A DNA stretch of 64,000 nucleotides, from the NCBI GenBank assembly GCA_004377185.1, contig SOIM01000037.1:1-64000 (forward strand), given 5' to 3'. This document shows, in pieces, positions 2,867-32,430 of this stretch. The notes under the pieces are model-generated. The model saw only the letters and a list, made by a program, of their open reading frames with translations. It did not search any database and was not told where the DNA came from. Within the stretch, counting starts at the first letter, position 1. Each line of letters opens with the position of its first letter. This stretch comes from Methanomassiliicoccales archaeon (GTDB lineage Archaea; Thermoplasmatota; Thermoplasmata; RBG-16-68-12; SOIM01). The translations under genes were made by a program, and so were the position numbers.

Positions 2867-3142
2867 GTGAAGGTAAGAGCCCACGCTATTTTCAGAGGAC
2901 GGGTCCAAGGTGTCTTTTTCAGGGCCAATACCGAAAGGAAGGCAAGGGAGCTGGGTCTCGTTGGATGGGTAAGGAATCTCGCGGACGGAACTGTGGAAGC
3001 CGTCTTCGAGGGCAACAAGGAAGGTGTTTCCGAAGCAATAGAATGGTGCCGGGAGAACCAACCCTACGCAAAAGTATCCAGTGTTGATGTGGCGTGGGAC
3101 GACCCGACTGGCCAACACACAAGCTTCGAAGTGAGAAGATAG
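2867..3142 (+). CDS. acyP: acylphosphatase
   Basis: 91 residues, usual family length, starting at a GTG (2867) about 20 bp after a TTTTTATG TATA-like element. The active-site loop FRGRVQGVFFRANTE contains the catalytic Arg, and GWVRNLADGTVEAVFEG contains the conserved Asn and the beta-strand signature. It hydrolyses carboxyl-phosphate bonds of acyl phosphates in the cytoplasm. It is divergent from the CBS protein gene and convergent with the downstream hydrolase, which ends 1 bp away. No oddities. Confidence 0.95.
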   Translation: MKVRAHAIFRGRVQGVFFRANTERKARELGLVGWVRNLADGTVEAVFEGNKEGVSEAIEWCRENQPYAKVSSVDVAWDDPTGQHTSFEVRR

Positions 3143-3143
3143 C

Positions 3144-3977
3144 CTAGTCTATGGAGATCTGGTAAATCTCTTCGGGATGGGTCTTGTGAACTGCGAGGAC
3201 ATCCTCCTCCGTGAAAAGTCCGTCCCTCAGCATGGCCATTGTCGTTCTGGGAACGGTTGCTGGACCCAGGACCGCACCCGGTCTTCTCGGATCGTCTATG
3301 TAGTCCGTTTCCATCAGGAACCGATTGCCTTGGGATATTGCTGACCGTATGTTCTGCTTGCTGGCCAGTACGCTTGGGAACAGTCCGTGATTCTTGTCCA
3401 AGTCCACGATGGGCGGGCAGAAATGTTTCACAACCCTTTCCCGTGAGAGACCGACAGAGTCAGCCATTTCAGCCAGTTCCTTGAACGTACCCAGGGTCGC
3501 GGATTCGGTGTGAAGGACCACCGGACAATCAGTGTCTTTTGCGAGCTCCATGCCGTATTTGAGAATCTCATTTGAAACCTGCATTATCTCCTCGGAAACG
3601 GGGAAGTGCGGTCTCCCTATCTCACCCACAGCTATGGCCAGACCCTTCTCAACAAACCCTGCCGCCAAGTCCATTCCTTTCATCATGATCTCCTTTGCAG
3701 GCCCGATGGGAATCCTTTCAACCATGTGTACGAGGTCGACTGGGTACGGACCGACAGTGACGAAGACCTTTGCATCCGTTTCCTTCCTGACCTTCTCAGC
3801 CATATCCACCGTTCTCTGAAAAGCCTCTTGATAGCTCTTCTCTCCTGTGATGGGGATGTCTCGGTAAGGAATGTGTGCAAGAACCAGGTGGGTGCCCCCC
3901 GCTCTGCAGAATTTCTTGACGGCTTGGACGTTCTCTCCGTCCGGGCGGAGATGCATGTGGTTGTCTAGAATGAACAT
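3144..3977 (-). CDS. TatD-related TIM-barrel metal-dependent hydrolase
   Basis: 277 residues. An N-terminal DNHMHLRPDG metal-binding HxH motif, a central GEIGRPHFP, a VVLHTES histidine, VVKHFCPP, and a late METDYIDDP aspartate are arranged as in the amidohydrolase/TatD superfamily (archaeal COG1099-like group). This suggests a cytoplasmic metal-dependent phosphoesterase or amidohydrolase; the substrate is unknown. The gene starts at ATG 3977, beside the TBP gene which is transcribed in the same direction from further upstream. Confidence 0.8.
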   Translation of the reverse strand: MFILDNHMHLRPDGENVQAVKKFCRAGGTHLVLAHIPYRDIPITGEKSYQEAFQRTVDMAEKVRKETDAKVFVTVGPYPVDLVHMVERIPIGPAKEIMMKGMDLAAGFVEKGLAIAVGEIGRPHFPVSEEIMQVSNEILKYGMELAKDTDCPVVLHTESATLGTFKELAEMADSVGLSRERVVKHFCPPIVDLDKNHGLFPSVLASKQNIRSAISQGNRFLMETDYIDDPRRPGAVLGPATVPRTTMAMLRDGLFTEEDVLAVHKTHPEEIYQISID

Positions 3978-9108: not shown

Positions 9109-9219
9109 AGCGGGGTGGGGTAGCTAGGAAACCTTGGTCGGTGAGTTCCAACCGATGAGGCTTCAAATCCCATCGGGCTCATAACCCGAAGATCCCTGGT
9201 TCAAATCCAGGCCCCGCTA
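9109..9219 (+). tRNA. initiator tRNA-Met (CAT) with a 37-nt insertion
   Basis: The acceptor stem AGCGGGG/CCCCGCT, T arm CCTGG-TTCAAAT-CCAGG, anticodon arm TCGGG-CTCATAA-CCCGA (anticodon 9180-9182) and discriminator A9219 are clear. The A1-U72 pair and three consecutive G-C pairs at the base of the anticodon loop are initiator features. The 111-nt gene is 37 nt too long: the extra bases lie between the D arm and the anticodon stem. Removing 9134-9170 gives a 74-nt cloverleaf with a perfect GGGT/ACCC D stem and A26. CCA is not encoded. It stands alone upstream of ftsZ. Confidence 0.93.
9134..9170 (+). other. putative non-canonical tRNA intron (37 nt)
   Basis: Insertion between the D arm and anticodon stem of tRNA-iMet. 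Boundaries can slide within a few bases (9132-9168 to 9134-9170) with the same mature product. It contains a 5-bp hairpin TCGGT/ACCGA. I could not find a strict bulge-helix-bulge at these joints, so splicing by the archaeal endonuclease is inferred from the restored cloverleaf, not from the splice motif. Confidence 0.65.
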
Positions 9220-30883: not shown

Positions 30884-30975
30884 TTTAAATAGAATCGCCA
30901 GTAATAGGATATTGGGTGTTTGAATGGGCAATCTCCCCCCTCCTAGAAGATTTTCCCGTTCAACACCACTTTTTT
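30884..30975 (+). ncRNA. candidate small RNA 3 with C-rich anti-Shine-Dalgarno-like loop
   Basis: TTTAAATA (30884-30891) predicts a start at about 30912. The RNA is almost entirely one hairpin: GGTGTT (bulged T) GAATGGG, 30915-30928, pairs with CCCGTTC-AACACC, 30955-30967, 13 bp with one bulge and one G-U. The 26-nt loop contains CTCCCCCCTCCTAG. Six T's end it at 30975. About 63 nt. No ORF. Confidence 0.6.
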
Positions 30976-31098
30976 CTCGGTGAGTCATTGTTTTCCTCTG
31001 TTTGCCCTGATCCGACTCTAATGCAAACGCGGTTTCCGTTCAGGCGTAGAAACCAAAATCTATAACAGTTTCCAAGCATATTAACCCCGAGTGATACA

Positions 31099-32430
31099 AT
31101 GAAGGTTCTCAATGTGGGAGGAGGGGCAAGGGAGCACTCGATCGTAGAGGCGCTGAGTAAGAGCGGTGCCGAGATATACTCGGTGATGAAGAACAAGAAC
31201 CCCGGAATCGCGAAGGCTTCCAAGGATTATGTCCTCATGGACGAGTGTGAGATTGAGAAAGTTGCGGAATGGGCCATTTCCAAGGGTGTAGAGCTGGCCA
31301 TCATCGGGCCTGAGTCACCTTTGGGAGAAGGCATCGTCGATCTGCTCGAGAGCAAAGGAATCCCTTGCGTAGGGCCCTCGAAGGCGGCAGCTCAGATCGA
31401 GATCTCCAAGGAGTACGCCAGAGACCTGATGAAAAGGAACAATATACCAGGATACGTTGAGCACCGGGCCTTTGACAATCTGGAGGACATCAGGCAGTTC
31501 TTGGAGGAGTTCGGTCGGGACGTGGTGGTGAAACCGATCGGCCTGACTGGCGGAAAAGGCGTGAAGATAATGGGGGAACAACTGAAGGACTATGACGACG
31601 TTCTGGCCTATTGTAGCGAAATACTCGAGAACGAGATCGGCGGTCAGTCCCGATTGATAATCGAGGAAAGATGTATCGGGGAGGAGTTCACCCTTCAGGC
31701 ATTCTGTGATGGCAAGACACTGGCTCCAATGCCGGCCGTGCAGGACCATAAGAGAGCTTACGAAGGGGATGAGGGGCCCAACACTGGCGGTATGGGCTCC
31801 TATTCCGAGTCAAACTGGCTTTTACCCTTCCTCACCAAAGAGGAATACGACCAAGCGGTGGACATAATGAAACAGACCATCGAAGCGATGGCTGCGGAAG
31901 GGACTCCCTACAAAGGCGTTCTTTATGGCCAGTTCATGTTGACCGCGGACGGTCTGAAGCTTATCGAATACAATGCAAGATTCGGGGACCCAGAATCAAT
32001 GAACGTCCTTCCCACGCTCCAGGATGATTTCCTGACCATATGCAAAGGGATAGTGGACGGCAACTTGAGCGCTGCCATCACGTTCGACCCGAAGGCAACT
32101 GTCTGCAAATATGTGGTCCCCATCGGCTACGGTGTGAAGTCTCTCGTAGGGGAGAAAATCTACCTGGATGAGGGAGCCATAAAGAAGACCGGAGCTGAGC
32201 TCTACTACGCTTCGGTCAACGAAGAGGGGGGACAGATATACACAACCTCATCGCGGTCGCTGGGCATCGTGGGGGTTGCCAATACGATTTCCGAGGCCGA
32301 GTTCATTTCCGAGGAAGCGCTCAGATACATCAGCGGAAAGGCATACATGAGGCATGACATAGGAAAGCCAGAGAGCATCCGAAGGAAGATTGAAAGGATG
32401 GAAGAGATACGGGGGAGTCGATCAGCATAG
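31099..32430 (+). CDS. purD: phosphoribosylamine-glycine ligase
   Basis: 443 residues, ATP-grasp enzyme. LNVGGGAREHSIVEAL (N domain), IIGPESPLGEGIVD, GPSKAAAQIEISKEYARDLM, VVVKPIGLTGGKGVKIM (ATP loop), EEFTLQAFCDGKTLAPMPAVQDHKRA, EGPNTGGMGSYS and FGDPESMNVLP are all diagnostic. It makes glycinamide ribonucleotide in purine synthesis. A 124-bp gap separates it from small RNA 3. Its TAG overlaps the proposed ATA start of the M20 gene. Confidence 0.97.
   Translation: MKVLNVGGGAREHSIVEALSKSGAEIYSVMKNKNPGIAKASKDYVLMDECEIEKVAEWAISKGVELAIIGPESPLGEGIVDLLESKGIPCVGPSKAAAQIEISKEYARDLMKRNNIPGYVEHRAFDNLEDIRQFLEEFGRDVVVKPIGLTGGKGVKIMGEQLKDYDDVLAYCSEILENEIGGQSRLIIEERCIGEEFTLQAFCDGKTLAPMPAVQDHKRAYEGDEGPNTGGMGSYSESNWLLPFLTKEEYDQAVDIMKQTIEAMAAEGTPYKGVLYGQFMLTADGLKLIEYNARFGDPESMNVLPTLQDDFLTICKGIVDGNLSAAITFDPKATVCKYVVPIGYGVKSLVGEKIYLDEGAIKKTGAELYYASVNEEGGQIYTTSSRSLGIVGVANTISEAEFISEEALRYISGKAYMRHDIGKPESIRRKIERMEEIRGSRSA

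Follow-up and report, generated by a model that had tools for sequence, protein, structure and literature searches.

Between a minus-strand tautomerase gene and purD lies what is very probably a gene for a small RNA of an uncultured archaeal group, found in the window (the whole 64,000-nt stretch of DNA analysed), which is contig C17 in an archaeal genome assembly totalling 2.64 Mb in 60 contigs. The named relatives of the locus are MAGs of Thermoplasmata/Euryarchaeota, and the order is perhaps GTDB RBG-16-68-12, Ca. Angelarchaeales, described in PMC9038741. The features of the locus are the following:

30884-30892, + strand: TATA box TTTAAATAG, its centre about 27 nt ahead of the first G of the RNA
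30915-30975, + strand: small RNA gene (very probable), 61 nt, supported by covariance models R1 and R2 and by its conservation against diverged flanks
30915-30928, + strand: 5′ stem arm GGUGUU(U)GAAUGGG with one bulged U, from the fold and covariation
30929-30954, + strand: C-rich loop of 26 nt, CAAUCUCCCCCCUCCUAGAAGAUUUU, from alignment A5, its core CAAYCUCCCCCCUCCUWGAA nearly invariant
30955-30967, + strand: 3′ stem arm CCCGUUCAACACC, from the fold and covariation
30970-30975, + strand: U6 tract, a probable terminator, with a T-run 3′ of the stem in every homologue
31052-31065, + strand: promoter-like box of purD, ACCAAAATCTATAA, from the alignment, conserved in five genomes of family f1
31099-32430, + strand: purD (GARS; Pfam GARS_A/N/C), the neighbour of the RNA

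Structure of the small RNA gene

The stem of the window RNA comprises 13 bp with one bulged U and is separated from the U6 tract by AC. Folding of the 61-mer gave -20.3 kcal/mol with a z-score of -4.6, and none of 200 shuffles folded equally well. Over the 92-nt span taken by an earlier, sequence-only reading the signal was diluted (z = -1.9). That reading had described a compact standalone gene with a TATA box, a start at the foot of the stem, a 13-bp stem, a 26-nt loop and a six-T end, all of which we confirm, except that its length of 63 nt has to be corrected to 61 nt. In family f1, to which the window belongs, an inner 5-bp helix (AAUCU/AGAUU) can reduce the loop to 13 nt; according to the alignment of homologues it is not retained in other families.

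All homologues have a TATA-like box about 30 nt 5′ of the stem and at similar spacing, a stem of 12-13 bp, a loop of 26-27 nt and a T-run within a few nucleotides of the stem, so that each is equipped with its own promoter-like box and T-run, as a standalone gene would be. The window RNA has no Rfam match at the gathering score, and matches of the homologues at E<=5 are at chance level only. This holds also for ctRNA_pGA1 (RF00236), to which one homologue is weakly similar (22.8 bits vs. a gathering score of 45, E = 1) and from which the window RNA differs in not being plasmid-borne, as far as its neighbours show. Elsewhere in the window, a borderline Rfam tRNA match at 9151-9219 (+ strand; 29.6 bits, cut-off 29), not reported by ARAGORN, may represent an intron-containing tRNA, one with atypical arms, or a false match.

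Conservation and covariation

Within family f1 the RNA occupies the same place in 5/5 genomes, and each of the other four copies is identical to that of the window in 60/61 positions. Identity to the window is 30-57% in the 60 nt upstream of the TATA region, 37-58% in the spacer between the RNA and purD, and 65-82% in the DNA of purD itself, the lowest of these last values belonging to a purD truncated where its contig ends. With covariance models, the RNA was detected in 13 of the 37 genomes of the order, in five families (f1, f3, f4, f5 and f6), which bears out the conservation of stem plus loop in relatives on which the sequence-only reading had staked its proposal.

The first model (R1), built from f1 sequences, matched f3, f5 and f6 at E-values of 1e-9 to 6e-5, and genus g9 of f4 only at 0.1-0.3. 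The f4/g9 loci are credible, since two of the three share a contig with purD, about 2.5 kb upstream of it, and the full loop is present. The second model (R2) added sequences of f3, f4 and f6, and scored 64-86 bits in all 13 genomes; its input sequences match by construction, but those of f5 (G008 and G012), left out of its building, still reached about 65 bits (E ~3e-12). The RNA was not found in f2 (5 genomes) or in genus g5 of f4 (19 genomes), nor upstream of purD in these groups where that region was read. Scans of sampled genomes of the class (300 in total) and of the phylum (389) gave no further copies either, although their stricter filters could let diverged copies escape. Two kinds of further candidate were rejected: three matches of the exact core pattern outside the family in the 389 phylum genomes, all without such a hairpin, and weak extra model matches (E 0.07-2), nearly all inside long open frames. 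As a minor observation, in G012 the RNA and folD occur together twice, almost identical, on the short contigs L160 and L161, probably owing to a strain mixture in the assembly.

Results of the covariation analysis showed that 98.6% of stem cells are paired, compared with 36-55% in slid controls, and that 12 cells carry double changes; 0/500 shuffles scored as high. The alignment used had been fitted to the model, and a MAFFT-based count agrees in direction. Three stem pairs are altered on both sides. Among the compensatory changes, one pair goes from A-U to U-A to C-G and another from U-A to C-G. In the loop, CAA, CUCCCCCCUCCU and GAA are identical in 14/14 sequences, the core CAAY(C)CUCCCCCCUCCUWGAA is nearly invariant, and about 18 positions are identical across the five families. 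As the core of the loop barely varies whereas the stem changes, function probably resides in the loop, with the stem as its holder. From its sequence and conservation, we regard 30915-30975 as very probably a real small-RNA gene, the representative of a new RNA family.

Possible action of the loop

The 16S rRNA of the window genome ends in GGAUCACCUCCUACG, with the terminal sequence GGAUCACCUCCUA, and CCUCCU is common to this tail and the loop (as CCUCCUA in f1), in agreement with the earlier statement that the motif equals the core of the 16S 3′ end. Most loops outside f1 hold ACCUCC plus CCUCCUU, and both ACCUCC and CCUCCU occur in the 16S tail. In all homologues the loop offers, in CUCCCCCCUCCU, an unpaired C-rich stretch that can base-pair with Shine-Dalgarno (SD) sequences.

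Beyond its observed anatomy, structure, conservation and independence from its neighbours, we propose that the RNA would be transcribed from its own TATA promoter, with its 5′ end near the first G of the stem and its 3′ end at the U-run, and that the stem would serve as a scaffold presenting the single-stranded C-rich loop. The loop would act in trans, its CUCCCCCCUCCU core, a copy of the anti-SD sequence, pairing with G-rich sites of the AGGAGG type in a subset of mRNAs, presumably those of genes with strong SDs, where binding of 30S would be blocked. Such trans antisense action on G-rich or SD sites appears to be the likeliest mechanism, to which we give a probability of about 0.45, because tests of possible partners yielded nothing decisive. 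It is supported by the fixed loop over a changing stem, by the CCUCC(U) shared with the 16S tail and by the existence of SD sites. Against it, extended loop complements are not enriched: across the 13 genomes, 18-nt complements are at about the level of a reversed control and not clearly commoner, and the best sites lie mostly within genes, most of them without a credible start-site target. Furthermore, the constraint, which runs from CAA to GAA, exceeds the anti-SD core and is wider than a short seed for many targets would require. A strong SD is also missing from most window ORFs, candidates being found in about 10 of the 57 long ORFs, a figure inflated by the several starts tried per gene, vs. 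3% of internal start codons. Of the suggestion that the loop blocks translation with CCUCCU as its seed, the presence of an anti-SD core therefore stands; pairing with mRNAs found no such backing, and the conserved stretch is longer than the proposed seed. In one genome (G013, contig C102; L153, about 1490-1535), CGAGGAGGCGGGAGGTCGCCCGGAGGGGGGAGTGGGTTG lies upstream of a possible start and matches the loop complement twice; this single-genome site may be a candidate target.

Among known systems, RoxS/RsaE, FsrA and CsfG of Firmicutes resemble the window RNA in being short and structured with an exposed C-rich strand, and in such sRNAs this single strand can pair with SD sequences (PMC8216469). 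The window RNA differs from the RoxS/RsaE type by its lack of an Rfam match, its archaeal TATA promoter, its one stem and its almost fixed 26-nt loop. By analogy it perhaps works like RoxS or FsrA without being a member of these groups. The sequence-only reading had compared it with C-rich-loop sRNAs of Gram-positive bacteria; the host here is a thermoplasmatal archaeon with few strong SDs among its window ORFs. The sRNA162 of Methanosarcina mazei is, like the window RNA, an archaeal standalone sRNA, and its single-stranded region was reported to occlude a ribosome-binding site that had been predicted (PMC3510493). However, sRNA162 folds into three stem-loops, is shared with two close relatives only and varies most in its linker (PMC3510493), whereas the RNA described here is one hairpin, kept over five families, with the loop as its most constant part.

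Two classes of RNA were rejected. An H/ACA guide RNA would carry an ACA box 3′ of the stem, where we found AC-U6, UCCCU6, CCUUUU and similar sequences instead. Y RNA, the partner of Ro60, has an end-to-end stem, a pyrimidine-rich loop and a U tail, and the window RNA recalls it in the stem formed by its two ends, its pyrimidine-rich loop and its U tail; yet a Ro60/TROVE gene is absent from eight carrier genomes, and there is no Rfam match. To our knowledge, few archaeal small RNAs persist beyond close relatives. Here, one well-defined RNA family that Rfam lacks spans five families of one archaeal order and has an anti-SD core in its loop. The RNA may regulate translation, and if it does, archaea would have arrived independently at a C-rich-loop strategy resembling the one known from Gram-positive bacteria.

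The main rival to antisense action, in our view rather unlikely, is that the loop is a decoy or site for a protein recognising the 16S 3′ end or C-rich single strands, so that the RNA titrates this protein or joins an RNP. Possible partners, we assume, are a ribosome-assembly KH protein such as Dim2/Pno1, an initiation factor or a ribosomal protein. The 18 or so fixed loop positions, CUCCCCCCUCCU included, fit a protein site better than a loose seed, and the occurrence of both 16S-tail motifs in most non-f1 loops points the same way. A specific form of this idea, which we consider unlikely, is that of an archaeal RNA mimicking the 16S 3′ end, that is, a structured, invariant copy of the anti-SD, which would act as a decoy for tail-holding proteins in ribosome assembly or initiation and not on single mRNAs.

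It is improbable that the RNA pairs with rRNA, at the AAGGAGGG strand of 16S helix 44, to act on the ribosome or as a guide. The 16S genes of G000, G006, G008 and G019 contain CAAGGAGGG, the site is missing in G005, the one RNA-less member of the order checked, and very few shuffles pair as well as the non-f1 loop (2/300 in G009, 6/300 with the sequence of G000). However, the window genome's own loop is no better than shuffled ones (175/300), and this strand is normally paired within helix 44. Over the whole 16S and 23S, pairing of the loop was special relative to shuffled loops in G009 only, in a rough scan in which some rRNA stretches were on the wrong strand. Separately, the 16S genes of G019 and G009 have an insertion right after GTCGTAA and before the 3′ tail (about 230 nt in L109, at about 2920-3188; in L108 near the 16S 3′ end), which is probably an rRNA intron.

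Relation to neighbouring genes and reading frames

A role in cis, as leader, attenuator or riboswitch of the one-carbon and purine genes folD and purD, would suit the position of the RNA directly upstream, and on the same strand, of purD in f1 and f3 or of folD (Pfam THF_DHG_CYH) in f5 and f6, with purH/purN nearby in several genomes. We consider this role largely refuted. In g9 of f4 (three genomes), the next gene is convergent, with its 3′ end towards the RNA, and looks like a winged-helix regulator from its sequence; there is no co-directional mRNA in this case, and the RNA is kept without a downstream cistron. The downstream genes have TATA-like boxes of their own (purD in f1, folD in f5 and f6), and from the conserved box of purD it and the RNA look like separate units. 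Moreover, the RNA is ended by the U-run, the linker is not conserved, and pairing of the loop with the purD and folD starts is mostly not above that of shuffled loops. The convergent arrangement and the U-tract thus argue for a separate gene rather than a leader. Taken with the fold, the conservation of the RNA and not of its flanks, the homologues in five families and the covariation, the convergent neighbour in g9 supports the preferred explanation, a standalone gene whose RNA would act in trans.

A mini-ORF or leader peptide, MGNLPPP, could be read from the in-frame ATG GGC AAY CTC CCC CCT CCT of f1, f6 and G008, but is highly improbable, being contradicted by the frame data: f4/g9 has no start codon and f3 has TTG, an additional C shifts the frame by +1 in G012, f1 lacks a stop there, third codon positions vary no more than the other two and the stem covaries. 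No frame with start and stop is kept across the families, as expected of a non-coding RNA. Finally, although a hairpin with a U-run resembles an intrinsic terminator, a mere terminator or chance hairpin is refuted, with a promoter-like box directly 5′ and the loop as the most conserved part, and decisively by the 60/61 identity within f1 against diverged flanks together with the covariance-model homologues in four families beyond f1.

The ancestral arrangement of the locus seems to have been purN-purH <- RNA -> folD -> purD. The four genes are clustered around the RNA in f6 (L158, 1477-6303, and L157), and this cluster is partly broken up in the other families.
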